Below, in pieces: positions 4,088 through 24,973 of a stretch of DNA of 25,474 nucleotides (position 1 is its first letter; every line of letters starts with the position of its first letter). Position numbers and translations under genes: made by a program. Where the stretch lies: positions 1 to 25,474 of IMG/VR virus record IMGVR_UViG_3300042889_002944. The stretch is one strand, 5' to 3'. The DNA is from a virus. A model generated the notes under the pieces. It saw nothing but the letters and a program-made list of their open reading frames with translations. It did no database searches and was not told where the DNA came from.

Positions 4088-4134
4088 TGGAGCCGGCTAT
4101 CAGAGTCGAACTGATGACCTACTGATTACAAATC
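4088..4134 (-). other. 3' half of tRNA-Thr(TGT), probable attachment site (att)
   Basis: Read on the minus strand, 4134 to 4088 matches the end of a bacterial tRNA-Thr: anticodon loop TTTGTAA with anticodon TGT, 3' anticodon strand, variable loop, T arm with GTTCGACTC, the acceptor strand GCCGGCT and an encoded CCA. The match stops abruptly inside the 5' anticodon stem. The next ~30 nt upstream (rightward) show no D arm or 5' acceptor strand, so no complete tRNA can form. This 47-nt remnant is what a tyrosine integrase using a tRNA 3' end leaves at the distal junction. The polarity puts the element at coordinates above 4134. Confidence 0.8.
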
Positions 4135-4226: not shown

Positions 4227-4249
4227 GGTGGGCATTGCGGTGGGCATTG
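4227..4249. repeat. Paired 11-bp direct repeat, 12-bp period
   Basis: GGTGGGCATTG is present at 4227-4237 and 4239-4249, ~55 nt before the regulator start codon. The 12-bp period is close to one helical turn, which suits an operator for the adjacent HTH protein or an integrase arm site near the att remnant. Function inferred. Confidence 0.45.
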
Positions 4250-4266
4250 GGAGGGGCGAAAAAGAG

Positions 4267-4283
4267 CTTGCGCTTTCGCCAAT
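4267..4283 (+). promoter_or_regulatory. 17-bp phage regulatory motif, copy 1
   Basis: CTTGCGCTTTCGCCAAT ends 19 nt before the ATG at 4303. An identical 17-mer is at 22993-23009, 22 nt before the helicase ATG, and its 11-bp core is inverted at 14650-14660. The motif is an imperfect palindrome (TTGCGC/CGCCAA halves). It is probably an operator or promoter element of the early genes. Confidence 0.55.
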
Positions 4284-4302: not shown

Positions 4303-4746
4303 ATGAGCACGAAGCGGCAGAAGATGGTCGGGACACGTTTCATGGCGGAGCTCCGCAATGTGATCTCGGATGATTTCGATGGCAATATGTCAGAGCTTTC
4401 CCGCCAGAGCAAGGTGCCGTCCGGGACGCTGGGGCATTATCTGTCGACCCACCGCTATCCGCGGGTGGATGTGCTGGACCGGATGCTGCGCTGCCTGGGC
4501 AAGGAGTCGAAAGCCCGCTTGTTGGAGGCGTATCTATTGGACCTGACGCCACCGTCCGCCCGCGGGCAGGTGGTGGTGCGGGGCTCGCAGGACCCGGCGC
4601 TGGAAACCCAGCGGCTGAACGAGGACCTGGGCTTCGATAGGAAGCTGGGGGAGTGTCTGGAGTGGATGGGCAGGCTGGCGATGGAGAACCACGCGATCCG
4701 GCTGATGGTGACCCAGACGGCGAAGGCGTTGGGGTGGAAGGGTTAG
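4303..4746 (+). CDS. Phage HTH transcriptional regulator, 147 aa
   Basis: The ATG at 4303 is chosen over upstream GTG/ATG codons at 4213-4218, because the earlier residues are Gly/Arg-rich and the shared regulatory motif (4267-4283) would lie inside the gene. Residues ~28-52 (NMSELSRQSKVPSGTLGHYL) form a Cro/CI-like helix-turn-helix, with MSELSRQS as the first helix and SGTLGHYL as the recognition helix. The C-terminal ~90 residues are helical and may dimerise; there is no LexA-type Ser/Lys protease domain. It is the only plus-strand gene at the left end of the phage and faces the late block across a shared hairpin. A role as repressor or early/late switch is inferred. Confidence 0.65.
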   Translation: MSTKRQKMVGTRFMAELRNVISDDFDGNMSELSRQSKVPSGTLGHYLSTHRYPRVDVLDRMLRCLGKESKARLLEAYLLDLTPPSARGQVVVRGSQDPALETQRLNEDLGFDRKLGECLEWMGRLAMENHAIRLMVTQTAKALGWKG

Positions 4747-13481: not shown

Positions 13482-14588
13482 CTATGCGGCCCCGAAAAGG
13501 GCGGCGCGGATGGTTTCCTCATTGGATGTCTCGATGAGCCTTTGGATGTTGTCCGGTGACGGCCGCACGGCGCTCTGGGAACCGGGAGCGCCGGACCCGA
13601 TGGGTCTGGCATTCTGGCGTGGGGCGGGTGCGGGGGTGCCTGTTGGCTTGGCGGCTGGCGGCGCGATCTCCTGCGCGACTCTTGAGGCTAGGGCCTTGAG
13701 TTGGGCGGGGTGATTGCGGATGGGTCCGTAGGCTTGCTCGTAGGACTCGACTTCCTGCGTGAGGCGGTAGCTGAAGAAGCTCCTGGGGTCTTCCGATTCC
13801 GGGTGGTCCACGTAGATGTCCTCGATGGCGGCACTGAGGGCCTGGGCTTGGACGGTGGTTTCCCTGGAGCGGAGGGCCGCGTGAGACTTCGCTTCCGACA
13901 GTGCGGCGACGGCGTCTTCGATTTGGCTGGTGAGTTCGAGTTCGGTGGGCCGGTCGAATTCCTCCACGGCGGCCTTGCGCTGGGCGCGGAGGTCGGCGAG
14001 TTGGGTTGCTAGGGCGGCTACATCGGCGTCTGGCTCGGTTACGGGTGCTGGCTGCCTGGCGGGCGTGGCGGCTGGAGGGGTGTCGTCTGCGGGTTGCTGG
14101 GCTTGCGGGCTTGGTTCTGACATGCCGTCCCCTTGAGTGAGGATTCTGATGGCATCTGCCAGACGGGGCGCTTTTCCTTCGCGCACCAGGTCCTTGGCTT
14201 GGGCAACGAGCAGGCGGTCGTCCGGGTGCAGGGATCTCAGGGAGATCCTGTCCAGTGCTGACGCTTGCTGGGGCGGTGCGGGCGGGGTGTCCTGGTCCCC
14301 GGCGGCGTCCAGCGGCTGTTCGCCTGCGGGGTCGTCTGCGGTGGGCTCGGGATCGGCCTGCGGATATGGGGTGTCACCGGACGCTGGGCCGGCTGGCTCG
14401 GCGTCGGCTGGAGAAGCGGGTTCCCTGCCGAAGAGCAGGTTTCCGATTTCCGTGGCGTTGGTCATCGCATCGATGGAGGCGGTGACGTCGGCGGGTTCCT
14501 GCCGTTGGGGCTGTTCGCCTCCTGCGGGCACTGTCTGGGTCTGAGGTTGCGGTTGTGCACCTGCAACGGGTGGGTCCATGACTGGCAT
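13482..14588 (-). CDS. Scaffold-like assembly protein, 368 aa
   Basis: Directly upstream of the capsid gene, the usual scaffold position. The sequence is Pro/Ala/Gln/Asp-rich and largely disordered for ~190 residues (PQPQTQTVPAGGEQPQRQEP), with a helical segment at ~110-150 (LDRISLRSLHPDDRLLVAQA). A charged coiled coil follows at ~190-250 (ALATQLADLRAQRKAAVEEF), then a C-terminal part ending in a helix (NIQRLIETSNEETIRAALFG). This matches scaffolds, which dimerise by coiled coil and bind the capsid through the C-terminus. The start is ATG 14588; ATG 14579 is an in-frame alternative. The upstream gap holds two phage regulatory motifs, so this gene likely begins its own transcript. Confidence 0.65.
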   Translation of the reverse strand: MPVMDPPVAGAQPQPQTQTVPAGGEQPQRQEPADVTASIDAMTNATEIGNLLFGREPASPADAEPAGPASGDTPYPQADPEPTADDPAGEQPLDAAGDQDTPPAPPQQASALDRISLRSLHPDDRLLVAQAKDLVREGKAPRLADAIRILTQGDGMSEPSPQAQQPADDTPPAATPARQPAPVTEPDADVAALATQLADLRAQRKAAVEEFDRPTELELTSQIEDAVAALSEAKSHAALRSRETTVQAQALSAAIEDIYVDHPESEDPRSFFSYRLTQEVESYEQAYGPIRNHPAQLKALASRVAQEIAPPAAKPTGTPAPAPRQNARPIGSGAPGSQSAVRPSPDNIQRLIETSNEETIRAALFGAA

Positions 14589-14619
14589 GGACGAGAGAGT
14601 AGAAGAGAAAAACGGGCGC

Positions 14620-14660
14620 GGGAGTGGCGGGAGTGGCGATTTCGCTAAAATTGGCGAAAG
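14620..14660 (-). promoter_or_regulatory. Regulatory region before the scaffold/capsid unit
   Basis: On the minus strand this 82-nt gap holds the 11-bp core CTTTCGCCAAT (14650-14660), an inverted pair TTTCGC/GCGAAA (14640-14645 and 14654-14659), and the 13-bp element TCCCGCCACTCCC (14620-14632) ending 31 nt before the start codon. The same 13-mer with the same 31-nt spacing precedes the portal gene. The region probably drives or gates capsid-module transcription. Confidence 0.5.
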
Positions 14661-14670
14661 TGGGAGGTTT

Positions 14671-16010: not shown

Positions 16011-16478
<468 letters not shown>

Positions 16479-19278: not shown

Positions 19279-20832
<1,554 letters not shown>

Positions 20833-20850: not shown

Positions 20851-22932
20851 TCAGGGGGTTGCGGGGAGTGGCGGTGATCCACCTGCCGTGCCTTCCGTGC
20901 CCGGGGCGGCCGGCGGGGCGATGAGCCCGGATTGCTGGGCGAACATCAGGAAGGGTTGCTGGAGTTCTGGCGGCAGCAGGGCGGCGATGCTGGCGGCGTC
21001 GGTGATGGGTTCGCGGATGATCTGGTCGGCGCCGTGGAAGCCGAGCGACATCATGGCCTGGATGAAGATGGGGCGGACGGCGACCTTCTCCGGCTCCGGC
21101 AGGGCGAGGTATTCCTTAAGGAAGGTGATGGCTCCCTGGGCGCTCTGGAGCTTGGTCTGGTTCTGCGCCTGCGTCATGGTGAGGGTGACGTTCATCCGCA
21201 GGCCGCGGACGTCGTTGCGGGCGATCTGCATCAGCTCCGGCACCCGGCCTTCCGACCAGGTGAAGGTTTCGTCGGCCTGTTGGTTGGCGTAGAGCAGGTG
21301 GATGGCGCAGTCGAGCGGGCGGGCGAGGGCGTCCTTGATCTCGTCGATGGGCCACTTGAGGAGGGTGGCGCCGCGGGAGATGATCTGGTTGACGCCGGTG
21401 GCGGTGTTAACCTCCGGCACGCCGGAGAGTTCGCCCTGGCTGGCGGAGGTGATGCCGGTGCGGCTCTGGGCCATCTGGATCATCATTTGCATGAGGTCGA
21501 TGGTGCGGTGGTTCGCATCCGGGACGGTCATGGTGGTGAATCCCTCGTCGATCTTGCGGCCGGGCTTGAGCTTGTAGGTCTTGCCTGGGGAGATGACGAT
21601 GTCGGACTCTTCCATGTCCTCGTCGAAGACCTCCGGGTCCACGCCGGTGATGGGGGTGGCGGCTTGGCGGTCGCGGTGGACGGTGAGGTTGAACTGCTCG
21701 TCGATGAAGTCGTCCACGTCCTCAAAGCGTTCAAAGTAGCCCTTGCCGGCGATGCGGTTGGGGATCTTGAACCACGGGATGGCGAAGATGGGAAGGATGC
21801 CGCCGGGGGTCTGGTTCTGGAGGTAGTCGAGGGTGAAGATCTGCCGCAGCATGGGTGAGAAGACACACCAGATGCGGATGGGGGAGCCGTCCGCGCCGTA
21901 GGGGTTCACGCGGAGGTAGCCTTCGCAGAGGATGATGGGCGGATTGGCGTCGGGCTCCTCCAGCGAGCGCTCGGTGGGGGATGCTTCGGCGCGTTGCTCG
22001 CGGGGGGTGTGGAGGCCGTCCTTCGCGTTGGTGATGAGGCTCAGGGCGGCGATGTATTGCTCGCCGGTGAGACTGTAGATGCGCTTGGCGTCGAGCAGGC
22101 CGATCTGGAAACTGTGGAAGACGTCGGTGTGGAGCAGCGACATTTCCGGGGCGGTGGGATCGAAGGCGATGTCGTTGTAGTCGATGCAGCGGGCCTCGAT
22201 GTTGTCCCAGATGACCGCTTGATCCTCGACGAGCATTTCCTGCCAGCCCATGGCGGTGGCGGCCTCCTGGTCGTCCGGGGTGACGTAGGAGCCGTCTGGC
22301 TTGAGGAGCGGCGTGCCGTCCTCGCCGAGGGCGACGGTCTTGATGGACTGGAAGTCCTCGATCTCTTTGCGCCAGGTGAGTTTGGGGAAGGCGGTGCCGA
22401 GGTCGCAGGCGAGCTTGAGGCAGTCGATGAGGCAGGACTTGAGGGAGGTGTGTTTGAACTTCCAGTGGGCGTGGCGGGTGATGGTGGTGCCGAGTCGTTC
22501 GTCGTCCGATCCTTCCGGGGCGGCGGAGAACCACGGCGAGGTGCCGAAGATGTCGTCGCGGGCCTGGGCGAAGGCGAAATCCGCGAAGCCGGAGACGAGT
22601 CCCAGCGTTCGGTTGGATTTTTCGAAAATGGTCAGCGGGGCGTCGGTGACGTCGCGGTTGGGAGCGCCCTTGCGGTCCTGGAGGTTCGCCTCGGATCGGC
22701 GCTCGCAGGACGACCGCTTGGCCCGCCAGCCGGTGAGCGCGGACTGGTAGGACTCGTAGCGGGTGGTGGCGTATTCCGCGAGCCAGTCGAGCTGGTGGTC
22801 CTTGAGCGAGATGGCGAGGGCGGTTTTCCCTTTGGGCAGGCGCTTGCCGGGGGTTTTCCCCGGCTGGAGGAAGCGGCCTTCGCGTTCGCGCTTGGCGGAA
22901 TCGGAGTGAGGATTTTCGACAACGAGCGACAT
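20851..22932 (-). CDS. Portal protein (P22-like, head-tail connector), 693 aa
   Basis: The dodecameric portal is the DNA gate of the head and the seed for assembly. Its length is near the P22 gp1 type (~720 aa). Typical features: a helical wing start (DHQLDWLAEYATTRYESYQS), the acidic DWRKEI/ALGEDG middle, a loop rich in Pro/Trp (GGILPIFAIPWFKIPNRIAG), a long helix (YFERFEDVDDFIDEQFNLTV), and near residues 509-535 the NTATGVNQIISRGATLLKWP segment, a conserved portal/clip pattern. A Pro/Gly-rich tail closes it. ATG 22932 is 31 nt after the 13-bp late motif at 22964-22976. The divergent early operon starts 100 nt away. Terminase does not precede it, which is unusual. Confidence 0.8.
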   Translation of the reverse strand: MSLVVENPHSDSAKREREGRFLQPGKTPGKRLPKGKTALAISLKDHQLDWLAEYATTRYESYQSALTGWRAKRSSCERRSEANLQDRKGAPNRDVTDAPLTIFEKSNRTLGLVSGFADFAFAQARDDIFGTSPWFSAAPEGSDDERLGTTITRHAHWKFKHTSLKSCLIDCLKLACDLGTAFPKLTWRKEIEDFQSIKTVALGEDGTPLLKPDGSYVTPDDQEAATAMGWQEMLVEDQAVIWDNIEARCIDYNDIAFDPTAPEMSLLHTDVFHSFQIGLLDAKRIYSLTGEQYIAALSLITNAKDGLHTPREQRAEASPTERSLEEPDANPPIILCEGYLRVNPYGADGSPIRIWCVFSPMLRQIFTLDYLQNQTPGGILPIFAIPWFKIPNRIAGKGYFERFEDVDDFIDEQFNLTVHRDRQAATPITGVDPEVFDEDMEESDIVISPGKTYKLKPGRKIDEGFTTMTVPDANHRTIDLMQMMIQMAQSRTGITSASQGELSGVPEVNTATGVNQIISRGATLLKWPIDEIKDALARPLDCAIHLLYANQQADETFTWSEGRVPELMQIARNDVRGLRMNVTLTMTQAQNQTKLQSAQGAITFLKEYLALPEPEKVAVRPIFIQAMMSLGFHGADQIIREPITDAASIAALLPPELQQPFLMFAQQSGLIAPPAAPGTEGTAGGSPPLPATP

Positions 22933-22963
22933 CGCGGGGAGAATAGGGGCGGCGGGATATTTC

Positions 22964-22976
22964 GGGAGTGGCGGGA
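22964..22976 (-). promoter_or_regulatory. 13-bp late-gene element, portal copy
   Basis: TCCCGCCACTCCC on the minus strand, ending 31 nt before the portal ATG. The identical 13-mer sits at the same 31-nt distance before the scaffold ATG (14620-14632). Here it lies between the arms TATTTC and GAAATA. Probably an activator or promoter element of the late transcripts. Confidence 0.55.
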
Positions 22977-22983
22977 AATAGAT

Positions 22984-23023
22984 TTGACGAGTCTTGCGCT
23001 TTCGCCAATGTTTCCGGAGAGGA
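22984..23023 (+). promoter_or_regulatory. Early-operon control region: 17-bp motif copy 2 and a true Shine-Dalgarno
   Basis: TTGACG (22984-22989) could be a -35, with AATGTT 17 nt further on as a poor -10. The 17-bp motif CTTGCGCTTTCGCCAAT (22993-23009) fills the spacer, where a regulator could block or aid polymerase. GGAGAGGA (23016-23023), 8 nt before ATG 23032, is one of the few clear ribosome sites here and decides the helicase start over ATG 23008. Confidence 0.5.
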
Positions 23024-23031
23024 CAGACACC

Positions 23032-24627
23032 ATGCTTTTACTCAAGACAGGAACCCGCTACGAGGCCAAGTGCAGCTATGAGGACAGGTATGTCCTGAAG
23101 TCGGCGGGGTTCCAGTGGGATGCGGCAGCGAAGGCGTGGTGGACGGCCGAGGAGTCCTGCGTGGCGAGGCTGCGGGGGCTGCATCCTGAGCCAGTGGAGA
23201 TCCACGAGAGCGCGGTGCAGGCGGATTTCTCGATCCCCTCGACATGGGACGGCCATCCGTCCTGCGCGACGGACGGACCGGAGGATATCCCCTGCCCTCC
23301 GGGTCTGGCGTATCTGCCCTACCAGCGCGGCGGGATCGCCTATGCGCGGGGGAAGGCGGGGGTGTTGATCGCGGACCAGCCTGGACTGGGGAAGACGATC
23401 CAGGCCATCGGTATCCTCAACGACGAGCCGGTGCGGGCGGTTCTGATCATTTGCCCGGCATCAATCAAGGAGAACTGGCAGCGGGAGGTGGACAAGTGGT
23501 TGAACTACTACCTGCCGGTGCATGTGGTGGACAAGGCGGCGCATCCGCTGCCGAAGAAGACGGGCGTGTTGATCGTCAACTACGACATTGTCGCCAAGCT
23601 GCGGCCGCGGTTGGATCTGGTGGAGTGGGACGTGCTGATTTGTGATGAGAGCCATCTCACGAAATCGCTCACGGCAAAGCGGACGGTCGCAGTTCTCGGG
23701 GTGAACGGCCAAGGCGGGATCCGGGCGGGCAAGCGGGTTTTCCTGACCGGGACGCCTGCGGAGTCGCGGCCGGCGGAGTTGTTCAGCGTGTGCCACGCGC
23801 TGCGGCCGGATTTGTTCCCGAGCTGGCTGGATTTCGCCTTCCGCTACTGCGGCGCCTACCAGAGCAAATACGGGCTGGATTCGCGGGGGGCGACGAACGT
23901 GGGCGAGCTGCAGGCGATCCTGCGGGAGAATTTCATGGTCAGGCGGATGAAGGTGGACGTCCTGAAGGACCTGCCGCCGAAGGTGCGGGTGCGGGTGACG
24001 CTGCCGTGCGACAAGAAGCTGCGCGGGCAGGTGGACGCGGAGCTGGCGGCCTACCAGCGCGAGCGGGCGCTGATCGAGAACCTGAAGCAGCGCGGGGCGT
24101 CCGTGGAGGATGTGCTGCTGGCGAAGAACGCGGCGCAGGCCCGGATGCGTGACCTGCGGGTGGCGACCAGCGCGGGCAAGATGCCGATGGCGCTGGAGTT
24201 CATCAAAAACGCGGCGGCGCAGGAGAAGGTGATCGTTTTCGCCAAGCACCACGCGGTGCTCGACGTGCTCGTCAAGGAGTTCGGCGAGCGGGCGGTGTGC
24301 ATCTCCGGCAAGACGCCGACGCATGAGCGGATGGCACTGGTGGACCGTTTCCAGAGTGATCCCGACTGCGCGGCGTTCATCGGCCAGATCGACGCGGCCG
24401 GGGTGGGTCTGACGCTCACGGCGTCGTCCCACGTCATCTTCGTGGAGTATGACTGGAGACCCGGCGTGCTGGAGCAGGCGAGCGACCGGGCGCACCGGAT
24501 CGGCCAGAAGGACTCCGTGACCTGCTCTTATCTCGTCATCGAGGACTCGCTCGACGACGTGATGCTTTCTTCAATCAACAAAAAACGCGACACCCTGCAT
24601 GAAACGCTCGATCTACCGTGCCGATAG
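23032..24627 (+). CDS. SNF2-family DNA helicase/translocase (SMARCAL1-like), 531 aa
   Basis: An ATP-driven double-strand DNA translocase of superfamily 2, seen in phages as a replication or recombination helper. Visible motifs: P-loop ADQPGLGKT (114-122), motif Ia region ICPASIKENW, DESH box (205-208), motif III LTGTP (238-242), motif V GQIDAAGVGLTL (451-462), motif VI QASDRAHRIGQ (482-492). All key residues are present, so it should be active. An N-terminal ~45-aa module (VLKSAGFQWDAAAKAWWTAE) resembles the small domain that precedes the helicase core in SMARCAL1-like and DUF5710 proteins. Start set by GGAGAGGA. First gene of an overlapping early operon and divergent from the portal. Its last 29 nt overlap the next gene. 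Confidence 0.9.
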   Translation: MLLLKTGTRYEAKCSYEDRYVLKSAGFQWDAAAKAWWTAEESCVARLRGLHPEPVEIHESAVQADFSIPSTWDGHPSCATDGPEDIPCPPGLAYLPYQRGGIAYARGKAGVLIADQPGLGKTIQAIGILNDEPVRAVLIICPASIKENWQREVDKWLNYYLPVHVVDKAAHPLPKKTGVLIVNYDIVAKLRPRLDLVEWDVLICDESHLTKSLTAKRTVAVLGVNGQGGIRAGKRVFLTGTPAESRPAELFSVCHALRPDLFPSWLDFAFRYCGAYQSKYGLDSRGATNVGELQAILRENFMVRRMKVDVLKDLPPKVRVRVTLPCDKKLRGQVDAELAAYQRERALIENLKQRGASVEDVLLAKNAAQARMRDLRVATSAGKMPMALEFIKNAAAQEKVIVFAKHHAVLDVLVKEFGERAVCISGKTPTHERMALVDRFQSDPDCAAFIGQIDAAGVGLTLTASSHVIFVEYDWRPGVLEQASDRAHRIGQKDSVTCSYLVIEDSLDDVMLSSINKKRDTLHETLDLPCR

Positions 24628-24973
24628 CATCCACAAGCCCGCCCTGCCCTTCCCGATGCCCGACCCGCAGCGGGAGGCGGCGATGGTGATTCTGATTGAA
24701 GAGGCGAAAGCCGCGAAGGTGCCGCCGGCGATGCTGGTGACGCACCTGCCGCACGCCGAGGAGATGAAGCTCACGGCGATCCGCAGCCGGGTGATCTGCC
24801 GCATCCATGCGGAGGTGCCGGGGATCGGGATCAAGATGTTGGCGCGGGCGTTCCGGCGGGACCACCGGCGGATCCGGGATCTGCTGGACGGGGTTTATGG
24901 AGGGAAGAGGGAGAACGCCAAAGCGATGGCATCCGCCGACGAGAAAACTACACCGAAGCAAACAACTTTATGA
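24599..24973 (+). CDS. Stand-alone DnaA domain-IV-like DNA-binding protein, 124 aa
   Basis: The C-half, residues ~58-97 (KLTAIRSRVICRIHAEVPGI, KMLARAFRRDHRRIRDLL), matches the pattern of the DnaA C-terminal helix-turn-helix that binds DnaA boxes: an R-x-R-x-I helix, a turn, then FRRDHRRIRD comparable to the DHTTV signature. No ATPase domain is present, so it can bind but not melt DNA. Residues 1-55 are helical and polar. ATG 24599 overlaps the helicase end by 29 nt, and its stop TGA overlaps the next ATG (ATGA), so translation is coupled. It may mark the phage origin or act as a DnaA-box competitor; function inferred. Confidence 0.6.
   Translation: MKRSIYRADSIHKPALPFPMPDPQREAAMVILIEEAKAAKVPPAMLVTHLPHAEEMKLTAIRSRVICRIHAEVPGIGIKMLARAFRRDHRRIRDLLDGVYGGKRENAKAMASADEKTTPKQTTL

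Follow-up and report, generated by a model that had tools for sequence, protein, structure and literature searches.

A conserved box before the regulator, helicase and scaffold-like genes of a tailed phage and its candidate XRE-type regulator

The L5-type (cluster A) mycobacteriophages carry operators and stoperators, asymmetric sites of 13-17 bp that lie in short intergenic gaps and are oriented with transcription; their immunity repressor is a small protein with an N-terminal helix-turn-helix, and the L5 genome has more than twenty such sites (PMC9283540). Leaderless bacterial genes are marked by a TANNNT motif some 12 bp ahead of the start codon (PMC3160421; PMC12340547).

The window analysed here, 25,474 bp from an IMG/VR virus record, contains a 17-bp sequence, box A, that is comparable to the L5-type stoperators (PMC9283540) in that its sites are intergenic and all oriented toward the gene they precede. 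Unlike the L5 sites, those of box A number three in the window and two in the relative G001, one of them is palindromic, the regulators share no sequence match and the binder of box A is a predicted one. The candidate regulator, encoded from position 4303, resembles XRE (Cro/CI-type) repressors such as P2 C in its modelled N-terminal five-helix fold, in the location of its gene near the putative attachment site and in having a site before its own gene. It differs from them in lacking a sequence-family match and an assigned role in lysogeny, and no site was found near the integrase or replication genes of G001.

We favour the reading that box A serves a phage regulator as its operator. The most likely candidate is the XRE-type product of 4303-4746, which would then control its own gene, the promoter region between the divergent portal and helicase genes and the promoter of the scaffold-capsid genes; we put the probability of this reading at roughly 0.55. 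The result is a small, concrete regulatory map with putative binding sites and promoters and a candidate regulator. The phage clade that it describes is known here from metagenomes alone and has no close relative in the phage records searched, and the map makes the timing of structural genes in such phages testable.

Placement, rarity and conservation of box A

The window derives from a tailed phage; its portal is SU10-like, its major capsid protein belongs to the Phage_capsid_3 family and its helicase is of the SNF2 type. Three relatives were found through their proteins. G001 (31,196 bp) encodes a regulator and a capsid protein that are each 81% identical to those of the window and a scaffold-like homologue at 73%; L005 shares the helicase (91%) and portal (89%); and L020 shares the helicase (71-73%), portal (59%), capsid (65%) and scaffold-like protein (46%). 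These relatives are few and fragmentary, and the regulator gene was not seen in the L005 and L020 fragments. The genes and sites concerned are as follows.

4267-4283, plus strand: box A site 1, exact match to CTTGCGCTTTCGCCAAT, 19 nt before the regulator start codon at 4303
4303-4746, plus strand: putative XRE-type regulator gene, 147 aa, with the 81% homologue in G001 and an N-terminal domain model; adjoins the putative attachment site
13482-14588, minus strand: scaffold-like gene that immediately precedes the major capsid gene, named by position only; homologues in G001 and L020
14640-14660, minus strand: box A site 2, palindromic form CTTTCGCCAATTTTAGCGAAA, kept in G001 with equal spacing
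20851-22932, minus strand: portal gene, first of the leftward structural genes (PF23899 SU10_portal, E 4.6e-17)
22984-22988, plus strand: TTGAC, -35-like element just upstream of site 3, invariant in the window, L005 and L020
22993-23009, plus strand: box A site 3, exact match to CTTGCGCTTTCGCCAAT, 22 nt before the helicase start codon at 23032
23032-24627, plus strand: SNF2-type helicase gene (PF00176, PF00271; phrog_62)

The original prediction had placed an identical 17-mer before the regulator and helicase genes and its core, with an inverted TTTCGC arm, on the minus strand before the scaffold gene. Both copies of the 17-mer and their distances to the start codons proved exact on recheck, and the inverted arm was found as described. 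The third copy, CTCCCACTTTCGCCAAT at 14650-14666 on the minus strand, has three mismatches; arms of TTTCGC (14640-14645) and GCGAAA (14654-14659) make site 2 a 20-bp imperfect palindrome, TTTCGCCAATTTTAGCGAAA at 14640-14659, of which the core forms one half. Counted from the A of the scaffold ATG, its centre is at -61.5 in the window and G001 alike. Box A is thus palindromic at one place and asymmetric at two, and at each of the three sites it points to the gene that it precedes. Relative to the divergent portal gene, site 3 spans -61 to -77, with the start codon as +1. Site 1 has a possible inverted arm on its upstream side, GGCGAAA at 4255-4261, which is missing in G001 and was therefore rejected as part of a conserved dyad. 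The scaffold name itself is based on the position next to the major capsid gene; no family matches the protein.

All three sites are noncoding, as had been claimed, in a region (4240 to 25300) of which only 4.1% is noncoding by our own gene set (867 bp of about 21 kb). A search of the whole window for the 17-mer with up to three mismatches returned three matches against 0.11 expected, a number reached in 0 of 100 shuffles; all three were noncoding, and coding DNA showed no scatter of chance copies. Exact matches to the core 11-mer CTTTCGCCAAT occur in the window only at the three box A sites. The longest repeat common to different noncoding gaps is 17 nt, compared with a maximum of 15 nt among 500 dinucleotide shuffles, which usually gave 9-10 nt (mode 9). 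A scan for the sigma-70 consensus gave no match at the sites of box A. Predicted RNA folding was no better than in shuffles, and a search of Rfam returned no family.

The sites recur at homologous places in three related contigs, and so withstand the test of conservation by which the original prediction could have failed. In G001, box A before the regulator gene is identical at 16 of 17 positions and occupies the homologous place, and before the scaffold-like gene the palindrome is intact. The box before the helicase gene is kept in L005 and L020, with TTGACnnGnnTTGCGnnTnCGCCAA common to both and the window. Identity within sites exceeds that of their flanks in each comparison (16/17 versus 61/146, 21/24 versus 9/40 and 12/17 versus 26/63). 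When only the sites of the relatives were used to build a matrix, the window sites ranked at the top, with 27.0, 27.0 and 22.6 bits and the next match at 12.3, a test that is partly circular because the relatives' sites had been recognised at homologous places. Conservation has limits within the clade: of the scaffold box, L020 keeps little more than CGCCAA, and no box stands in front of the portal gene of a more distant relative, L147 (portal 43%). G001 has its two sites and no further strong one, including near its integrase, RecT, SSB and DnaB genes. An exact scan of viral contigs with TTGCGSTTTCGCCAA returned at least 120 stretches, a number attainable by chance alone, and among the matches listed only G001 has homologues of window proteins. 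The stricter helicase pattern matched L005 and L020, plus an unrelated coding match, L149.

Portal and scaffold leaders

The two leftward leaders share further elements, which are additions to the original prediction, as is the differing placement of box A relative to promoters.

14596-14601, minus strand: TACTCT, putative -10 hexamer of the scaffold leader, ending 7 nt before the ATG
14619-14632, minus strand: box B of the scaffold leader, TCCCGCCACTCCCG, 30 nt ahead of the ATG and identical in G001
22940-22945, minus strand: TATTCT, putative -10 hexamer of the portal leader, ending 7 nt before the ATG
22963-22976, minus strand: box B of the portal leader, TCCCGCCACTCCCG, 30 nt ahead of the ATG; L005 differs at one of the first 13 nt

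Box B lies exactly 30 nt upstream of both ATGs and 17 nt upstream of the TAnnnT hexamer; in a putative leaderless promoter it would occupy the -35 position. All six portal and scaffold leaders have TAnnnT at a distance of exactly 7 nt from the ATG, and none of 50 other gene starts has it; the arrangement was sought after it had been sighted in two leaders, so that the window pair is no independent test. The L005 portal leader keeps both box B and TAnnnT. In L020, the portal and scaffold leaders carry another, mutually identical 12-mer, ACCGCCGCCCCT, 21 nt before TAAAAT and TAAGAT, which again lie 7 nt before the ATG. Because these leaders have strongly diverged, the L020 pair is the better evidence for the signature.

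We propose that TAnnnT-N7-ATG at the portal and scaffold genes is a putative leaderless-promoter signature. As in the leaderless TANNNT promoters of high-GC bacteria (PMC3160421; PMC12340547), the first T lies close upstream of the start, here 13 bp before the portal or scaffold ATG in every relative showing them. In contrast to those promoters, the arrangement here marks two gene starts per genome and comes with a conserved box at the -35 position that is unlike TTGACA. The signature is usable to locate structural operons in relatives. Many of the leftward gene starts in the window lack a clear Shine-Dalgarno sequence and read ACCACC-ATG, CACC-ATG or CGACC-ATG.

A candidate regulator and how it might act

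Searches of Pfam, PHROGs and NCBIfam returned no family for the 147-aa protein, and the phage and plasmid records searched contained no relative of it. Its N-terminal 87 residues model as a five-helix fold (pLDDT 81). In a Foldseek search with this domain the best PDB matches were almost all XRE proteins, including C.Esp1396I, ClgR and the P2 C repressor; probabilities reached 0.99 and TM scores about 0.6, with E-values of 0.3 and above, which are not significant on their own. The whole protein gave a mediocre model whose fold matches were meaningless and were set aside; the N-terminal part alone was informative. On this modelling the product is likely a helix-turn-helix protein, and it is a plausible binder of box A. 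The regulator gene carries box A in both genomes where the gene was seen, the window and G001. Because this layout is autoregulatory, we infer that box A is the operator of the 4303 protein, and its arrangement suggests that it is probably an autoregulatory one.

The position of box A, its orientation, its rarity in coding DNA and its conservation in relatives give good support to the idea that a common regulator acts at the three sites, as had been proposed. The accompanying suggestion that the helicase belongs to an early operon under this control is not supported: in G001 the replication and recombination genes lie elsewhere, without a site. Some features weigh against the operator reading. 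It would be unusual for one dimeric binder to use a palindrome at one place and asymmetric sites at two, and both the largely lost L020 scaffold site and the L147 portal gene without a site run counter to it.

We considered whether the repeat could be a by-product of chance or base composition. The window does have other repeats of 17-18 nt, and these fall in repetitive or tail-fibre coding DNA. Box A, by comparison, is noncoding, longer than shuffles give and kept at homologous places in three contigs, and we therefore regard chance or low complexity as ruled out to within a negligible residue. A role as a core promoter element, for phage or host RNA polymerase with an unusual sigma factor or a phage promoter, would account for the common orientation of the three sites to their downstream genes, for start codons only 19 and 22 nt away and for the conserved TTGAC just upstream at the helicase gene. 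We nevertheless find it unlikely, as the portal gene, first of the leftward structural genes, has no box A in the forward direction, and box A at the scaffold-like gene lies 62-72 bp upstream of the ATG with the separate TAnnnT promoter signature in between. The palindrome of site 2 fits a protein dimer, and no phage RNA polymerase was found among the G001 proteins scanned.

It is also conceivable, if somewhat doubtful, that box A is bound by a different protein, for example a regulator of the host or a second phage protein like the product of 24599-24973, and that the 4303 gene is just one of its targets. The 4303 protein is tied to the site by position and fold alone and belongs to no recognisable family, and the small 24599-24973 protein is conserved in L005 (74%). 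A host factor would leave unexplained the confinement of the site to few places and its maintenance there across a phage clade, and 4303 stands as a single gene preceded by its own box, as is usual in autoregulation.

Returning to the operator of the 4303 protein, we infer protein binding, and propose a tentative sign of regulation, from where box A sits. At the regulator's own gene and at the helicase gene, the box lies where a bound regulator would block RNA polymerase: just upstream of its own start it would repress its own gene, and downstream of TTGAC it would repress the helicase. At the structural genes, whose candidate promoters are leaderless, box A lies upstream of the promoter, 61-77 bp for the portal and about 61.5 bp for the scaffold-like gene, so that the protein would act from upstream, perhaps as an activator. 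With TTGAC ahead of box A at the helicase gene, and the structural promoters downstream of the box in their own direction, a single protein could repress transcription one way and influence it from an upstream site the other way. We tentatively sketch, as a scheme with a small chance of being right in full, a direction switch in which a small regulator encoded near the attachment site would, at the box shared by the divergent genes, repress the rightward helicase unit and, from about -60 to -77, activate the leaderless portal and scaffold-capsid promoters, through an asymmetric site at one place and a palindromic site at another. By analogy with L5, a repressor that silences all units is a possible alternative; the orientation of the sites fits it, and their number does not.

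Attachment region and neighbouring genes

The 3' half of a tRNA-Thr gene (anticodon TGT by eye) lies at 4088-4134 on the minus strand, with no 5' half adjoining; at the corresponding place, G001 has the 3' half of a tRNA-Lys gene (CTT) beside its integrase gene. The half at 4088-4134 looks like a phage attachment core. At 4227-4250 on the plus strand is a direct repeat of GGTGGGCATT with a period of 12, which is kept in G001; copies of the GGTGGGCATT type also occur on the far side of the tRNA half in that genome, and these repeats resemble integrase arm-type sites. The segment 1-4087 has one marginal match to the early region of G001 and otherwise no similarity, shows the opposite GC skew and has no recognisable integrase; it is possibly bacterial DNA flanking an integrated prophage. 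Searches of bacterial genomes with the portal and capsid proteins found neither a host nor a prophage, and the phage records searched contained only remote portals.

The small protein encoded downstream of the helicase gene (24599-24973, plus strand) resembles DnaA domain IV by eye and has no family match. On the minus strand, the protein encoded at 16011-16478 ends in a long proline-glutamate dipeptide repeat (16011-16160), and a tail-fibre-like protein at 19279-20832 has collagen-like Gly-X-Y repeats at 20255-20390.
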